A stretch of 64,000 nucleotides of DNA from Leptolyngbya ohadii IS1 (GTDB taxonomy: Bacteria > Cyanobacteriota > Cyanobacteriia > Elainellales > Elainellaceae). Shown one piece after another: positions 4,384 through 59,093 of the stretch (positions are counted from its first letter, which is position 1; the number at the start of each line of letters is the position of its first letter). Position numbers and translations under genes: made by a program. The DNA lies in contig NZ_NKFP01000004.1 of the NCBI RefSeq assembly GCF_002215035.1, forward strand, positions 435,726-499,725, given 5' to 3'. Under the pieces are notes generated by a model. That model had not been told where the DNA came from and did not search any database. It saw only the letters and a program-made list of their open reading frames with translations.

Positions 4384-4797
4384 ATGGCAGAAGAGAAGAG
4401 TCAGTCTTCAGAGCAGTATTCCGAGCAGAATTTTTGGAACAAACTCAAAGGTGTTGCCGTCTTTGCAGGGCGAGAAGTGGTTGAAAAAGCGTTAACGCTA
4501 TTCTATGCAGCCCAACGACCGGAAACGCCGCTGTGGGCAAAAATGACGATCTATTCTGCTTTGGCATATTTTATTTTGCCTGCCGATGCCATTCCCGATT
4601 TTCTGCCAATTTCTGGTTTTACAGATGATTTAGGCGCACTAGCAGCCGCATTTGGTGCAGTCGCGATCGCGATTACGCCCGAAGTAAAAGACCAGGCAAA
4701 ACAGCAGGTTAGACAGTGGTTTAAAGACGACGAAACCGCCGAGCCACAGTCTACCCCCGGTGCGAACGATACGATTCGCGAAATTGCGATCGACTGA
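4384..4797 (+). CDS. YkvA / DUF1232 family small membrane protein
   Basis: The product has 137 residues. The middle (about 56-100) carries the DUF1232 signature: YSALAYFILPADAIPDFLP followed by GFTDDLGALAAAFGAV, two hydrophobic helices around a P-x-D-x-IPD turn. The function of this family is not established; members are small, probably membrane-associated proteins. The N-terminus is polar and Ser/Glu/Gln-rich, and the C-terminus is acidic. The gene stands alone between the suf terminator and the ABC substrate-binding protein. The call rests on the motif alone. Confidence 0.85.
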   Translation: MAEEKSQSSEQYSEQNFWNKLKGVAVFAGREVVEKALTLFYAAQRPETPLWAKMTIYSALAYFILPADAIPDFLPISGFTDDLGALAAAFGAVAIAITPEVKDQAKQQVRQWFKDDETAEPQSTPGANDTIREIAID

Positions 4798-20221: not shown

Positions 20222-20737
20222 ATGAACTACGTCATCGCTGTTCTTCCCGATCGTATTCAAGCCGAAGCTGCCTATTCCCAGCTTGAAAAAGAAGGCATTC
20301 CCCAGAGTCAAATGAGTATCCTGGGACGCGGCTACAAAACCGCCGACGAGTACGGCTTTATCGACCCCCAACAGCCCGCCCGCAAACAGGCACGATTAAT
20401 GTCCTTCTGGCTGGTTCCCTTTGGCTTTATTGGCGGCGTTGCCTTTAACCTTGCAACCAATTATGAGGTGTTTCCCGAAATTGGACTCCTGGGCAACCGG
20501 ATTCTGGGCGGCGTCCTGGGAGCGATCGGCGGCGCAATGGGCAGCTTTTTTGTCGGTGGCTTCACGGGCGCAGCAATGGGCAGCGGTGATGCTCTCCCCT
20601 ACCGCAATCGGCTGAAGGAAGGCAAATACATCGTCGCAGTCAGCGGCGCACCCAATATTACAAATAAAGCCTCCAGCATCCTGAAAGGATTTAAGCCGGA
20701 ATCTCTCCAGGGCTATGTTGATCCCAATGTTAATTAG
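20222..20737 (+). CDS. Conserved cyanobacterial protein with Gly-rich membrane hairpin
   Basis: A 171-residue protein of no established function that I recognise as a type common in cyanobacteria. The N-terminal 45 residues (NYVIAVLPDRIQAEAAYSQL ending in SILGRGY) look like a small alpha/beta domain as in general-stress proteins of the YflT/DUF1269 sort. A Gly/Ala-rich hydrophobic region follows (SFWLVPFGFIGGVAFNLA; GGVLGAIGGAMGSFFVGGF), probably a helical hairpin that inserts in membranes. The tail (LPYRNRLKEGKYIVAVSG) returns to a soluble strand. The ATG at 20222 has no strong Shine-Dalgarno. A G-rich repeat array begins at the stop codon. Confidence 0.75.
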   Translation: MNYVIAVLPDRIQAEAAYSQLEKEGIPQSQMSILGRGYKTADEYGFIDPQQPARKQARLMSFWLVPFGFIGGVAFNLATNYEVFPEIGLLGNRILGGVLGAIGGAMGSFFVGGFTGAAMGSGDALPYRNRLKEGKYIVAVSGAPNITNKASSILKGFKPESLQGYVDPNVN

Positions 20738-20998
20738 GGGGAGTAGGAGAGTGGGGGAGTGGGTTGATGAGTCGGTGGGTTGATGAGTAGAATCCTTGGG
20801 ACAAATCCGGCTGAAGCGCCTAACCCAGAGACTTAAAGGCAACGGCAAAGTCATTTATTAAATGACAACAGTTATTAAATGACAACAATCCGCTCACCCC
20901 TCCAGAATTCCCATTCCCTCACCTGCCTACTCATCCACTCATTCACTCATCCACTCATTCCCCCCTCTACTCCCTACTCATCCACTCATCCATCCAAC
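20738..20998. repeat. Inverted pair of G-rich and C-rich octamer arrays filling the gap
   Basis: Right after the stop, 20738-20793 is a G-rich array of GAGTGG-, GATGAGT- and GGGTT-type units. At 20926-20998 the complementary type appears, with repeated ACTCATCC/ACTCATTC units, and it touches the ATG of the next gene. The two arrays are imperfect reverse complements and could pair in RNA across the gap. Between them is an exact 16-bp repeat (TTATTAAATGACAACA at 20855 and 20872). The same octamer array precedes the HDAC and trpC genes. Confidence 0.8.
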
Positions 20999-21736
20999 AT
21001 GACCACCCTCCCCAAAACCCTCGAAGAAGCGATCGAACAGGCAAAAGTCTCTACCCAGGCGGCGATCGAAGACGGCTACAAGCGGGTTCAGGTTGAAATT
21101 GTCTTTCCTGAACTGAAGATAATGCCGATCGCGGCTCAGTTTTTGGAACCGTTTGAGGCCCTGGGCGAAAAGCTACGCGTCTATTTCACCGATGCGGGGG
21201 CGGCGGCATTAGCTCGGCGGGACTGGGGCGAGAAGCCGTTTGCGATCCGGGGGTTGAGCGATATGCGATCGGAGATTCAGCCAGAGGAGGAGCTATTGCT
21301 GTTTGTAGAGCCGTCCTCCGTGGAGGTAAATGAAGTTGAGCAGCTTTGCCAGCAGGCGGGCGATCGGGCGGTGGTGCTGCTCAATCCAAAAATGGAAGAC
21401 ATTGTGACGATCGGGATTGGTTATGCAGGGCGGCAGCTGCGGGAGCGATTCCTGAAGCAGTTTGATGCGGCGTACTATCTTCAGCCGATCGAAGGGGCAG
21501 CAATTCTGCGGGCGTATCCCTCTCCCTGGCAGGTCTGGGTGGAGAAGGCAGAAGATGACTACGAATTAGCAGGCGAATTTCCGCAGAAGCCGAACAGCGA
21601 GATGATTGAAGGGCTGTTATTGGGCACAGCGGAGACAGAAGAAGCCACAGCGGAACCTGCAACATCCTCCCGTCCGGCTCAGCGTAAAGGAATTTTGTCT
21701 TCGCTTCAGCAGTTCCTGCGGGCGTTAAGTCAGTAG
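20999..21736 (+). CDS. DUF1995 family protein
   Basis: The frame is open from 20879, but the first 40 codons read through the CCACTCAT repeat array and give low-complexity sequence (Ser/Thr/Pro/His), so I take the ATG at 20999. The 245-residue product begins TLPKTLEEAIEQAKVSTQAA, typical of the DUF1995 family found in cyanobacteria and chloroplasts; it continues VQVEIVFPELK, LRVYFTDAGAAALARRDWG, and later VVLLNPKMED, GYAGRQLRERFLKQFDAAYYLQP and a WQVWVEK strand. The function is not known; the fold is probably alpha/beta. The C-terminal 25 residues are Ala/Thr/Ser-rich and basic. No Shine-Dalgarno is visible because the repeat array fills the leader. Confidence 0.85.
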   Translation: MTTLPKTLEEAIEQAKVSTQAAIEDGYKRVQVEIVFPELKIMPIAAQFLEPFEALGEKLRVYFTDAGAAALARRDWGEKPFAIRGLSDMRSEIQPEEELLLFVEPSSVEVNEVEQLCQQAGDRAVVLLNPKMEDIVTIGIGYAGRQLRERFLKQFDAAYYLQPIEGAAILRAYPSPWQVWVEKAEDDYELAGEFPQKPNSEMIEGLLLGTAETEEATAEPATSSRPAQRKGILSSLQQFLRALSQ

Positions 21737-29532: not shown

Positions 29533-29633
29533 TTCAAGCATAGACCGGGGGTGGGTAAATTTGCGGATGGGCGATCGTGAGAAGCAAATGTTTTGATGGA
29601 AAAGGCTCTTTTGCCCTTCCTCAGCGCCCTTTC

Positions 29634-29685
29634 TCAGCACTATTCCTCAACGTCATTCCTCAGCACTATTCCTCAACGTCATTCC
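29634..29685 (+). repeat. Exact 26-bp tandem repeat, pyrimidine-rich
   Basis: The 26-base unit beginning TCAGCACTATTCCTCAACGT occurs twice without a change, followed by a partial third (TCAACATCGTTC). It ends about 50 bases before the ATG at 29738, and there is no clear Shine-Dalgarno. Confidence 0.85.
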
Positions 29686-29737
29686 TCAACATCGTTCTTC
29701 AACTGTAAATTCCTCGACCATCAATTCATTAACCCTA

Positions 29738-37405: not shown

Positions 37406-37512
37406 GCATTCAGCAGCGAAAAACGATCTCCACTGTAGCGTAAGGCACGAATACAAATCATAGACAACAAGAGAGATCCCCCGCTTCCCTGCTCCTCTGC
37501 TCCCCTGCTCCC

Positions 37513-38427
37513 CTACCCAAACTGCCGATACACATCACTCGCCGCCCGATGCAGCAGTGAATGCCGATACACCAGCGCACTCATATCCTCCGCGTAGCCC
37601 CCCCCAATCACACAGGCGACCGGATAGCCCAGCGACAGACAGGTGCTTAAAACCTGCATTTCCCGGCAAAACACCCCTCGATCGCTTAACGCCAGCTTCC
37701 CCAGCCGATCGCCCAGATGCACATCCACTCCTGCATCGTAGAACACCAGATCGGGCTTGACCTGCGAGAGGAGATCGGGCAGGTAGGCTGCCAGAGTTTG
37801 CAGGTACTCGTCGTCCTCCATCCCTTCGGGGAGGGGCACATCCAGATCGCTTTGCTGCTTTGTGCCGGGAAAATTCACGCCGCAGTGCATCGAGAAGGTG
37901 AACACACGCGGATCGTTTTGAAAGATAAAGGCAGTGCCGTCCCCCTGATGCACATCCAGATCGACAATCAGGATCTTCTGAACCAGACCCTCCTGAAGCA
38001 GCACTCGTGAGGCGATCGCCAGGTCGTTAAAAATGCAAAAGCCAGAACCATAGTCCGGAAACGCATGATGGGTTCCCCCTGCGGTCTGACAGGCTAATCC
38101 TCGCTGTAATGCCAGCCGTGCCGTGAGAATCGTTCCACCCACTGCAATACAGGTACGGTTCACCAGGGCAGGACTCCAGGGTAGCCCAATCCGTCGCTGT
38201 GCCTTGGGGTCGAGGGTTCCCTCTCGATAAGCCTGGACGTATTCCGATGTATGCACGGCTTGAATCCAGTCGATCGGCGGCAGTTCGGGCTGATGAAACT
38301 GGGAAGGATGGGCAACCCCATCGGCGATCAGCGCCTCGTAGAGGAGCCGAAACTTCTGCATCGGAAATCGATGTCCGGGAGGCAGGGGGGCGATGTAGTT
38401 GGGGTGGTAGATGAGGGGGAGATCCAT
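37513..38427 (-). CDS. Histone-deacetylase-family zinc deacylase
   Basis: An arginase/deacetylase-fold zinc hydrolase of 304 residues from ATG 38427; the upstream open frame reads through the octamer array into low-complexity Thr/His/Pro sequence and is not part of it. Seen: the catalytic His pair His120-His121 in AGGTHHAFPDYGSGF, zinc ligands Asp158 and His160 in VDLDVHQGDGTAF, the third ligand Asp235 in YDAGVDVHLGD, and the GGGYAED loop with the stabilising tyrosine. Bacterial relatives remove acetyl groups from polyamines, acetoin-pathway metabolites or proteins. The polyamine-binding protein at 5.1 kb is too far away to support a link. Confidence 0.92.
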   Translation of the reverse strand: MDLPLIYHPNYIAPLPPGHRFPMQKFRLLYEALIADGVAHPSQFHQPELPPIDWIQAVHTSEYVQAYREGTLDPKAQRRIGLPWSPALVNRTCIAVGGTILTARLALQRGLACQTAGGTHHAFPDYGSGFCIFNDLAIASRVLLQEGLVQKILIVDLDVHQGDGTAFIFQNDPRVFTFSMHCGVNFPGTKQQSDLDVPLPEGMEDDEYLQTLAAYLPDLLSQVKPDLVFYDAGVDVHLGDRLGKLALSDRGVFCREMQVLSTCLSLGYPVACVIGGGYAEDMSALVYRHSLLHRAASDVYRQFG

Positions 38428-38487
38428 TTGGGGTGGATGGGTGGGCGAGTGGATGAGTGGATGAGTGGGGAGTGGGGAGTAGGAGTT
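38428..38487. repeat. Octamer array directly before the HDAC start codon
   Basis: Read on the coding (minus) strand, CCACTCAT- and CCACCCAT-type units follow each other right up to the ATG at 38427, with CCACTCCCC units before them. This is the same family as the arrays before 20999 and 57309. No Shine-Dalgarno is present. Confidence 0.8.
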
Positions 38488-43887: not shown

Positions 43888-43973
43888 GCCAATTCCTGAC
43901 TGAGATTAAAGAGTCTACTCTTCCAGCCTAAAGACTCCACCCCAAAAATCAAGCAAATTCATAACTTCCCATT

Positions 43974-44001
43974 CCCTACTCCCTACTCCCTACTCCCTAC
44001 T
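43974..44001. repeat. Four heptamer repeats CCCTACT at the hrcA 3' end
   Basis: Four exact CCCTACT copies in a row, flanked by related ATTCCCT and CCCCGCTCC. On the hrcA coding strand they read as AGTAGGG units just after its stop, that is, the G-rich kind of array seen after other genes here. This is like the short tandemly repeated (STRR) heptamers known in filamentous cyanobacteria. Confidence 0.8.
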
Positions 44002-44010
44002 CCCCGCTCC

Positions 44011-56415: not shown

Positions 56416-57309
56416 TTACCGACGAGAATTCACCAGAATCGCCGCTGCTGCCTCTCCCGGATCGGGCTGCTTTACCAGAGATTCACCAATCAGCACTGCC
56501 CCTGCCCCTGCTTGCCGCACACGCTCCAAATCCGCTGGCGTATAAAGTCCAGATTCACTGACCACCAGAATTTCCCGCGATCGAATTTCCTCACCTCGCG
56601 CCGCCAGCAGATCCTCCGTGGTTTGCAGATCCACCTTAAAGTCTTCCAGGTTGCGGTTATTGATGCCGATCAGCGTCACGCCCTCTAGCTGTAACACCCG
56701 ATCGAGTTCCGCCAGGGTATGAACCTCCACCAGCGCCGTCATGCCCAGCACCCGCGCAATTTTGAGGAAATACTGCAAATCCTTGTCCGACAAAATCGCC
56801 GCAATCAGCAGGATCGCATCCGCCCCGTGGTTCCGCGCCAGATAGATTTGATAGGGATAGATGATGAACTCTTTGCAGAGCAGCGGCAGATCAACCACCT
56901 CCCGAATCCGCTTCAGGTTGTTAAAACTGCCCTGAAAAAACTTCTCGTCCGTCAGCACCGAAAGGCAGGCGGCACCTCCCTGAGCATAGGATTTTGCGAT
57001 CGCCACCGGGTCGAAATCCTCCCGCAATACTCCCTTACTGGGCGAAGCCTTCTTCACCTCCGCAATCAGGGCAGGGTTGCTGGAAGCCGACTTCAGGGCA
57101 ACCAAAAAATCCCGCACGGGCGGCGCAGTTTTCGCTTGAGTCTGCAATTCAATCAGCGGCACCCGTTCCCGCAGCCGATCGACTTCTTTCTCCTTCTGCC
57201 AAACAATCTCCTCCAGAATATTCTGGGGCACGGCATCGTCTAGCGGCACTTGGTATTGAACGTACTCAACTCCGATCGCAGGGTTGGGTTGGCGGCGGCG
57301 GATTTGCAT
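56416..57309 (-). CDS. trpC: TrpC, indole-3-glycerol phosphate synthase
   Basis: TrpC closes the indole ring, the fourth step from chorismate to tryptophan. The 297-residue (beta/alpha)8 protein starts at ATG 57309; the longer frame reads through the octamer array. Seen: the catalytic lysine region [15 protein letters not shown] (Lys86/Lys87), [35 protein letters not shown] with the second catalytic Lys, [26 protein letters not shown] and [13 protein letters not shown] (phosphate site). The N-terminal 30 residues ([10 protein letters not shown]...) are an extension typical of cyanobacterial TrpC. lpdA lies upstream on the same strand across a repeat-filled gap. Confidence 0.96.
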
Positions 57310-57542
57310 GGGGTGGATGGGTGGATGAGTGGATGAGTGGATGGGTGGATGGGTGGGCGAGTAGGGGGATGGGTGGGCGAGTAGGGGGTGAGTGAGTAGG
57401 AGGGTGGGTGAGTGATCAGGATGGGGATTGGAAGAAGACGATCGCTTCAAGTCCAAATCGAGCTAAGTATGAAAATCTCCCCTGCTCCCTGCTCCCCTGC
57501 CCCCCTGCTACTCATCCACTCATCCACTCATCCACCCATCCC
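57310..57542. repeat. Inverted pair of octamer arrays in the lpdA-trpC gap
   Basis: On the coding (minus) strand, the gap begins after the lpdA stop with a G-rich array of GGATGAGT-type units (57503-57542) and G/C runs, and ends with repeated CCACTCAT/CCACCCAT units that touch the trpC ATG (57310-57415). The two ends are imperfect reverse complements, as in the 20738-20998 gap. Confidence 0.85.
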
Positions 57543-58976
57543 CTAGTGCGCCACAACCGCCCGCTTATACGCCTCATCCAGCACTTCGGACAGCGTAGGG
57601 TGAGTATGAACGGTGAAGGCGAGATCTTTGATTGATCGTCTCTCGGCAATGGCGTTGGCGGCTTCCTGGATCAGGTCGGAGGCGTGGAGTCCAAGGATAT
57701 GGACGCCCAGAACTTCCCCGGTGTCTTCGCGATAGACTACTTTTGCTAAGCCGTCGGTTTCGCCTTCGGCGATCGCTTTGGAGTTGCCCTTAAAGTACGA
57801 TCGCGTCGTGGCAACTTTGAAACCTTCCGCTTGAGCAAGTTCCTGGGCGGCGGGTTCGGTGAGTCCCACAAAGCTGACTTCGGGATGGGTAAAGGCGGCG
57901 GCGGGAATACTGCGATAGTCCACCGTGCGCGATCGTCCGCAGATGTTTTCTATAGCTACAATGCCCTGCGCCGAAGCCGCGTGAGCCAGCATCATTTTGC
58001 CCGTGGCATCGCCAATTGCCCAGAGATGGGGCACGGGTTGACCGTCTACCAGGACTTCCATCCGATCGTTGACAGGAATAAATCCTCGGCGGTCAAGTTC
58101 CACGCTAACCGCGTCTAAGCCCAGATCTTTGGTGGCGGGAATGCGTCCGGTCGCGACCAGGCAGGCATCCACTTCCAGGACATCGACCACTTCTTTGGTT
58201 TTGGCGTCCGCCAGTTCGATCACCACAGGCGATCCCGGAATTACCCGCTTTGCTAGAGTACTGACCTTCGTTTCAATGTCGCGCGGCGCGATCAGGACTC
58301 GCTGTGCCTGCTTGGCAATGTCGGGATCAAAACCGGGCATGAGCTGATCGAGTGCCTCAATCATAGTGACTTCGCTGCCCAGTGCCGTGTAGACATCGGC
58401 GAACTCCAGTCCAATGTAGCCGCTGCCAATAATTGCAATCCAGTTGGGCAGGGATTCCAGGCGCACCCCATCGTCGCTGGTGAAGACCGTTTTATTGTCG
58501 ATTTCAATTCCGGGCGGCACAAAGGGCACCGATCCGGGTGAGAGAATAATGTCCTTGGCGGTGATTGTCTTCTCGCCCTCGCTGGAAGTCACCGTCACTT
58601 TTTGCGGTGCTGCAATCCGACCCCGACCGCGAATCGTTTCTACCTTCAGTCGTTTCAGGCTGTTTGTCAGGTCATCGCGAATCTTGGCAACCAGATTGTT
58701 GGCGTGGGAAGCGATCGCCTCTCGCTCAAAGGAAACCTGCTGAACCTGAATTCCCAATGCTTTCAAATGGTGGGCATTTCGCAGTTCTCGTACCCGACCG
58801 GAAGCTGCCAGCAGTGCCTTGGAAGGGATACAGCCGCGATTGACACAGGTTCCCCCCATGTCTTCCGCTTCGATGATGGCAGTCTTCAGCCCACAGGCAA
58901 CAGCGTGCAGTGCGGCTCCATGCCCACCGACGCCCGCCCCAATAATCACTAAATCGTAGTCGAATTCGTGACTCAC
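57543..58976 (-). CDS. lpdA: LpdA, dihydrolipoamide dehydrogenase
   Basis: LpdA reoxidises dihydrolipoamide with NAD+ in pyruvate dehydrogenase and related complexes (including glycine cleavage). The start is GTG 58976 with GGGAGAG 8 bases upstream; the 477-residue product begins [20 protein letters not shown] (FAD motif GxGxxG). Seen: the redox disulfide [13 protein letters not shown] (Cys44, Cys49), NAD motif [35 protein letters not shown], and the C-terminal catalytic base HTHPTLSEV (His-x4-Glu dyad region). Length is normal. An in-frame TTG at 58994 is less likely. Confidence 0.96.
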
Positions 58977-59093
58977 TTCGCTCTCCCTCTGCAATGCTCA
59001 GTCTTCCATTTTCCTTGTTTGGGGGACGATTAGACAACTCCCTCCCCGATTTGCACCGATCTGCTGCGGGTAGAGGCTGGGCAAAAATCCGTA

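Follow-up and report, generated by a model that had tools for sequence, protein, structure and literature searches.

Tandem arrays of seven- or eight-base-pair units that adjoin coding sequences are oriented by one rule, shown here for the canonical units of four genomes, and what these otherwise different units retain in common is that the strand pointing away from the gene bears G and almost no C. The window, that is the whole 64-kb stretch of DNA analysed, corresponds to positions 435726-499725 of contig C4 in the 7.9-Mb genome of Leptolyngbya ohadii IS1 (8 contigs; G000 in the following). G026 is a genome of the same genus, and G017, G028, G030, G015, G005, G016 and G029 are the other genomes compared. 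Counts of the form a:b give arrays that follow the rule, with the G-bearing strand outward, and arrays that run against it, 3' ends being listed before 5' ends.

Arrays and genes in the window

As the initial annotation had described, octamer arrays adjoin the starts of three genes, from which they end 6 bp (DUF1995), 5 bp (HDAC) and 1 bp (IGPS) away, and in the gaps ahead of DUF1995 and IGPS a complementary G-rich array lies past the stop of the preceding gene. The same three starts are picked by a simple ORF caller when the arrays are masked. The features are as follows.

20222-20737: gene for a 171-aa protein, stop codon TAG at 20735-20737
20737-20790, plus strand: G-rich array past the stop codon of the 171-aa gene, regular at 20737-20763, with degenerate TTGATGAG units to about 20790
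20791-20928: core between the arms of the DUF1995 gap, holding a 17-bp direct repeat
20929-20992, plus strand: C-rich octamer array (ACTCATCC), ending ahead of the DUF1995 ATG at 20999
20999-21736, plus strand: DUF1995 gene (Pfam PF09353, E 5.4e-64)
37477-37514, minus strand: G-rich octamer array (GCAGGGGA), on and past the HDAC stop
37513-38427, minus strand: HDAC (histone deacetylase-family) gene (Pfam PF00850, E 1e-58)
38433-38480, minus strand: C-rich array ahead of the HDAC start at 38427
43973-44010, minus strand: G-rich heptamer array (GTAGGGA), directly past the HrcA stop
56416-57309, minus strand: IGPS (indole-3-glycerol phosphate synthase) gene (Pfam PF00218, E 7e-88)
57311-57413, minus strand: C-rich octamer array ahead of the IGPS start at 57309
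57414-57476: core between the arms of the IGPS-Lpd gap, 63 bp
57477-57541, minus strand: G-rich octamer array past the Lpd stop, 1 bp from the stop at 57543
57543-58994, minus strand: dihydrolipoamide dehydrogenase-type gene (Lpd; Pfam PF07992 and PF02852), called start 58976, longest-ORF start 58994

The regular part of the first array starts on the last base of the TAG stop of the 171-aa gene. In G026 this gene ends in TAA, and Lpd, whose stop is TAG here, ends in TGA, the position of the C-terminus being identical in both cases. Of the 34 family genomes with an IGPS match, the own genome counted, 28 have a best match that begins at residue 1. HDAC had been credited with a 5' array only. The gap ahead of this gene does hold a single array, and its opposite edge is without a partner, but the G-rich GCAGGGGA array sits on the HDAC stop. 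The heptamer array past the HrcA stop had also been overlooked. Likewise, a Shine-Dalgarno sequence is missing ahead of the three genes as had been noted, but this is no special trait, since GGAG, GAGG or AGGA occurs at -18 to -4 in just 176 of 596 called genes.

Other repeats are present in the window as well. The core of the DUF1995 gap contains 1.9 copies of the direct repeat TTATTAAATGACAACAG at 20855-20887, and a C-rich array of 13/26-bp repeats at 29613-29703 lies 34 bp ahead of a called start (29738) in the same sense as the octamers. The window furthermore carries 33 copies of GCGATCGC, which we take to be the cyanobacterial HIP1 motif.

Orientation at the borders of coding sequences

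The unbiased sample of G000 consisted of the window and 40 regularly spaced 20-kb stretches (864 kb in all); a further 37 stretches (389 kb) were chosen around listed probe matches outside this sample. A 17-base probe with up to 2 mismatches gave 429 matches genome-wide versus 42 for a reversed-pattern control, and the probe-chosen stretches were drawn from the approximately 100 of these 429 matches that were listed, so that the array total in G000 is a lower bound. Arrays were detected with Tandem Repeats Finder. Genes were called by a simple ORF caller based on hexamers, with the sample as training set and the arrays masked; the result is no standard annotation, its stops being exact and its starts approximate.

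Within 15 bp of the end of a coding sequence (CDS), the octamers of both sets of G000 stretches had their G-bearing strand outward in ratios of 27:1 and 14:0 (6:0 and 4:0 in the unbiased sample alone). At 16-50 bp the counts were 1:1 and 5:1, and farther out 0:3 and 4:0. The constant orientation relative to genes that had been claimed at the outset thus holds in the sampled stretches, which do not contain the random genome-wide orientation set against it there; as a whole, the original reading of the arrays is partly supported. When every G-skewed array of period 7 or 8 in the unbiased sample is counted, 16:4 and 5:0 are obtained. Heptamers within 15 bp gave 5:2 and 5:0. G-skewed arrays outside the three canonical families of G000 (octamer, heptamer and GCAGGGGA) gave 8:6 and 2:1 within the same distance and do not follow the rule; this class includes the rule-following G-rich array at 20737 and three heptamer- or octamer-like exceptions. 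Canonical arrays that obey within 15 bp number 34 at 3' ends and 19 at 5' ends, and those ahead of starts end no more than 12 bp from the ATG, which 2 of the 19 reach or touch.

The same polarity is apparent when gene calls are dispensed with: opposite-sense neighbours within 400 bp of each other stand in the order G-then-C in 26 cases and never in the reverse order. This order is also found in all 20 G000 gaps with arrays of both senses. One sense only is present in 45 of the 65 array gaps, and no outward G skew indicative of a hidden partner was found at the opposite edge of one-armed gaps (pooled -0.11, n=22). A general skew of gaps was rejected as the cause, as the GC skew of array-free gaps is at most 0.105 in absolute value. 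A boundary element, one of the functions initially suggested, is possible, but the arrays have no clear gap-type preference in the unbiased sample (14 of 277 tandem, 3 of 76 convergent and 4 of 102 divergent gaps); in the probe-chosen set, they occupy 9 of 37 convergent and 8 of 51 divergent gaps. Arrays occupy both edges of 5 gaps, where independent events would predict 0.37.

At up to one mismatch, the octamer probe has 187 matches in G000, 3 in G026, 119 in G017 and 167 in G028, and none in 16 of the 36 family genomes. The octamers of G000, G017 and G028 form a pool of 138 arrays, of which 17 intragenic ones and 12 at stretch ends were excluded from the orientation counts. Those within 15 bp of a CDS end gave 34:2 and 17:1, the contributions of G017 and G028 being based on a G000-type caller that assigned 53% and 62% of bases to coding sequence and missed some genes there. 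Beyond 50 bp the pooled octamers have no preference (6:11 and 13:8, 19:19 in total). Far octamers of G017 (8:10) behave like those elsewhere, so they carry little weight as an internal control.

The rule extends to units of quite different composition. Purine arrays of the GGAAGAG type in G030 gave 13:1 and 4:1 within 15 bp, with a G-then-C pair order of 16:4, and AT-rich GAGTTTT arrays in G017 gave 11:1 and 6:0, with a pair order of 7:1. The latter run purine-poor outward yet obey, and a purine-outward rule was therefore discarded. In the three array sets measured, the fraction of C on the G strand is 0.01-0.06. The G030 stretches were selected via plus-strand probe matches only; the apparent one-strand bias of these matches is a listing artefact, 18 minus-strand matches being present in the same fetched stretches. 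Counted without gene calls, opposite-sense neighbours within 400 bp are in G-then-C order in ratios of 35:3 in G028, 7:0 in G017 and 4:0 in a mixed sample of five genomes (72:3 with G000 included), and G026 has no such pairs within this distance. Among gaps with both senses, all 22 of G028 are G-then-C; in G017 seven have this order, one is C-then-G and one G-C-G. In the lightly sampled genomes, for which all arrays of period 7-9, 14-16 or 21-24 with a skew of at least 0.5 were counted, results within 15 bp were mixed: 3:2 and 1:1 for G030, 1:0 and 0:1 for G029, and, at 3' ends, 5:0 for G015 and 3:1 for G005. No intergenic array was found in the light sample of G016.

Turnover of the arrays and explanations for their sense

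Twenty-four orthologous adjacent gaps shared with G026 were compared, five of which hold canonical arrays in G000. Among seven array gaps of G000 set against the nearest relative, one (L163) keeps octamers beside the CDS and one (DUF1995) a short octamer run. In the L140 gap (4445-4673) the core is ancestral and an array has been added at one edge only, and the IGPS gap of G026 contains a different array of longer period. Of four further two-armed gaps traced in G026 (L163, L158, L150 and L142), L158 has lost homology at the CDS ends. At L163 the layout is common to both species and the right-hand arm next to the CDS aligns better than the core, an alignment pattern that would suit either turnover or maintenance. 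The orthologous DUF1995 and IGPS gaps of other genera have the same layout made from different units (GGGGAGT in G028, GAGTTTT in G017, AAGAAAA/CTCTTCC in G030 and GTCAATG in G015), and many other genomes are without an array there.

Several array contexts deserve mention in their own right. L142 (5199-5405) and L150 (4721-4952) are two-armed gaps whose flanking genes are not adjacent in G026; the arrays at these sites may indicate points of rearrangement, in contrast to the description of Xanthomonas by Rehm et al. In G017, octamers lie inside a dispersed MITE-like element of approximately 105 bp with the ends TTACAGC...GCTGTAA (L168-L187, e.g. L172 4803-4841). An 80-bp palindromic core occurs six times in G028, each copy flanked on both sides by octamer arms, and the G-side arm of five copies has GGTGACAGGGTGGATGGG (L190 4792-5029, L198 12334-12527, L200 4556-4738, L201 4676-4875, L204 3362-3601 and L205 4953-5164); a second family with cores of roughly 190-310 bp appears by eye to be present in the same genome.

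We tentatively prefer to explain the arrays as tandem repeats with a propensity for turnover that owe their sense to transcription and translation at the CDS border. Lineage-specific repeats of 7-8 bp would lengthen and undergo turnover within intergenic gaps up to the point of contact with the adjacent CDS, and at every border one sense would persist or expand, namely that in which G is present and C almost absent on the outward strand. Given this outward strand, the RNA leaving a gene (sense past the stop, antisense past the start) is G-bearing and C-poor, and the leader RNA is therefore poor in G. The inverted repeat that spans a two-armed gap would be a by-product of one rule acting at both edges and not a maintained hairpin. 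We infer that transcription and translation at the border are the cause of the sense, the half that concerns 3' ends being the weakest step. At 5' ends, selection would act against G-bearing leaders on account of structure or false ribosome sites; without G, a leader has little scope for self-folding or for imitating a Shine-Dalgarno sequence. For 3' ends, the candidates are an expansion of G-skewed untranslated RNA driven by hybrids and the retention of a polar pause. RNA:DNA hybrids could form where RNA past a stop is G-skewed and untranslated, which would favour expansion. The constraint on leaders accounts for the 5' ends and gives no reason for the rarity of C-rich arrays after stops. The non-canonical arrays of G000 and the heptamers at its 3' ends speak against the preferred explanation, as do the lack of preference among octamers beyond 50 bp and the slight likeness of the arms of a gap in G028, and the excess of gaps with arrays at both edges is not fully explained by it.

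A polar transcription gate, which we consider rather unlikely, would cover the sense at both 3' and 5' ends as well as the independence of quadruplex motifs. Polymerase leaving a gene would produce G-rich RNA, form an RNA:DNA hybrid and stall, polymerase entering would produce C-rich RNA and pass, and the gaps would thereby be insulated. The layout common to two species at L163 is in line with such a gate, as is the report by Rehm et al. (2015; PMC4692102) that in Xanthomonas the starts or stops of transcripts fall on G4-forming repeats with a higher frequency than on control repeats. On the other hand, arrays occupy only the small share of tandem, convergent and divergent gaps given above, and octamers beside the CDS have been kept in so few of the seven gaps compared with the nearest relative.

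A transcript hairpin or terminator, with two arms selected to pair, had been among the original proposals and is weakened by the analysis. The RNAs of the two full gaps of the window do fold well (z -6.6 each), although the gap ahead of HDAC does not (z -0.55), and the excess of gaps with arrays at both edges would suit such structures. The strong folds, however, arise because the units are complementary. In the 20 two-armed gaps of G000, the mean longest shared word is 12.05 for arms of the same gap and 12.06 for permuted arms. Arms are thus no better matched within gaps than across them, and pairing therefore does not look selected. A weak excess is present in G028 (17.3 versus 14.5, n=22, p 0.05; three scores 0.03-0.11). 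Moreover, in most array gaps of G000 a single sense is present, divergent gaps bear arrays too, and a hairpin alone would give no preference of G-then-C over C-then-G, so that we regard this reading as quite improbable.

We attach the same low probability to a filter by codon content, according to which the G strand, as a supplier of stops, is tolerated at 3' ends and the C strand, which is without stops or starts, ahead of starts. Canonical arrays that follow the rule reach into the CDS end in 24 of 34 G000 cases, and the adjoining stops are TAG in 23, TGA in 9 and TAA in 2 of these 34, as compared with TAA in 335 of 884 over all called genes (Fisher p 2e-5). With TAG or TGA at 32 of the 34 stops, and with this frequency of overlap, the repeat therefore often supplies the stop. 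Stop-codon supply was nevertheless rejected as the sole cause, as orientation is independent of stop codons in one genome, G030, where GGAAGAG-type arrays lacking stop triplets follow the rule 10:0 and 4:0. Perfect GGGAATC and GGGGATT repeats (Rehm et al., 2015) contain no stop triplet either, yet follow the rule. The corresponding arrays of G000 are very few (2:2 and 1:0).

Less probable still is that the arrays are terminal repeats, whether of small mobile elements or of exchangeable cassettes. The six bracketed cores of G028 would agree with this, as would the fact that an end of the MITE-like element lies within 70 bp of 17 of the 26 octamer arrays of G017, and of the six two-armed gaps compared with G026, two have flanking genes that are not neighbours in that genome. 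Neither the 80-bp core of G028 nor the element end of G017 has a match in the G000 stretches, however, and no conserved core or ends were seen among the gap cores of G000, which look mutually unrelated apart from short pieces of other repeats. A single conserved element of the MITE or REP kind was consequently rejected for G000, although such elements exist in G017 and G028. Furthermore, insertion alone would hardly place the arrays so exactly against CDS ends, and at L140 an array was added at one edge of an ancestral core.

A G-quadruplex element, an idea already raised for the Xanthomonas and Nostoc heptamers, is very unlikely. A G3+ quadruplex motif is present in 30 of the 78 octamer arrays of G000, which is near the shares of repeats with quadruplex capacity in Xanthomonas, 56% in Xcc and 42% in Xac (Rehm et al., 2015; PMC4692102). 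The rule is equally strong without this motif, with 46:4 and 20:2 pooled over four genomes (G000 22:1 and 9:0; G028 2:1 and 1:1; G030 11:1 and 4:1; G017 GAGTTTT 11:1 and 6:0), so that quadruplexes were rejected as a general cause, two-tetrad quadruplexes lying outside this test.

Least probable of all are sites of translational control at which C-rich leaders bind an RNA-binding regulator, as PMC4679880 suggests for Beggiatoaceae TAACTGA repeats of similar placement: the arrays do end close to the ATG, but a leader site leaves unexplained that 3' ends bear more arrays than 5' ends, and from genus to genus the unit at a given gene changes. The slippage-tunable leader that had also been envisaged is unsupported here, the neighbours being genes of the DUF1995, HDAC, IGPS, Lpd and HrcA type.

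Known repeat systems and meaning of the rule

REP or BIME palindromes and MITEs are dispersed, palindromic and intergenic, with a core and ends conserved among copies. The arrays of G000 are alike in the first three respects and differ in that no conserved core or end was seen in this genome; the octamer-carrying elements of G017 and G028 have both. The STRR sequences of filamentous cyanobacteria, reportedly described by Mazel et al. in 1990, are said to be short degenerate tandem heptamer units in dispersed positions. By this definition, the arrays studied here are likewise short degenerate tandem units in many dispersed copies of a cyanobacterial genome, the unit being an octamer instead of a heptamer.

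According to PMC4679880, TAACTGA direct repeats occur in Beggiatoaceae, some Cyanobacteria and Bacteroidetes, no farther than several nucleotides from the start codons of genes without a common function. They resemble the present arrays as short tandem arrays close to start codons and in the lack of a common gene function, but their unit is a single invariant heptamer that has G as well as C on each strand, and the abstract gives no gene-end or strand rule.

The orientation rule itself is not new. Rehm et al. (2015; PMC4692102) report it for the G-rich heptamers GGGAATC in Xanthomonas and GGGGA(C/T)T in Nostoc PCC 7120, which are dispersed, mostly intergenic, and lie no more than 50 bp from a CDS end, in the sense strand past stops and in the antisense strand ahead of starts. 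They sometimes overlap the stop, have neighbours of any function, vary in length between relatives, are fewer between divergent genes and form convergent inverted pairs, 70 in Xcc, 75 in Xac and few in Nostoc. Their orientation was framed in terms of G-quadruplexes; no function was found and the question was left open (PMC4692102). The arrays described here are alike in placement, strand sense, stop overlap, inverted pairs, neighbours of any function and length change, and their share of quadruplex motifs lies near the published ones. They differ in their period of 8 with mostly GG tracts, heptamers occurring alongside (43973-44010), in the obedience of sister-genus units with hardly any quadruplex motif, and in that two-armed gaps are common in this cyanobacterium; in G000 the occupancy of divergent and convergent gaps is as counted above for both sets. 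What is new is that the rule holds without a G4 motif, in G030 without stop triplets, and in the AT-rich GAGTTTT unit. A search through literature listings yielded no report of the octamer or of a rule for units without a quadruplex motif, and the passages of PMC8619395 and PMC4666352 examined do not report an orientation rule.

The same orientation without a quadruplex motif, with or without stop codons, and in GC-rich and AT-rich units alike argues against a structural explanation as the general cause, and its persistence across units points to strand-specific transcription at gene borders. In a bolder and improbable version, bacterial gene borders would bear a polarity mark that is independent of any one sequence, with lineages building anew different arrays of 7-8 bp units with G, but hardly any C, on the outward strand, to act as a one-way transcription gate. 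If this were true, the RNA leaving a gene would be prone to form hybrids and the RNA entering it would not, and the mark would be built from whatever repeat is at hand.
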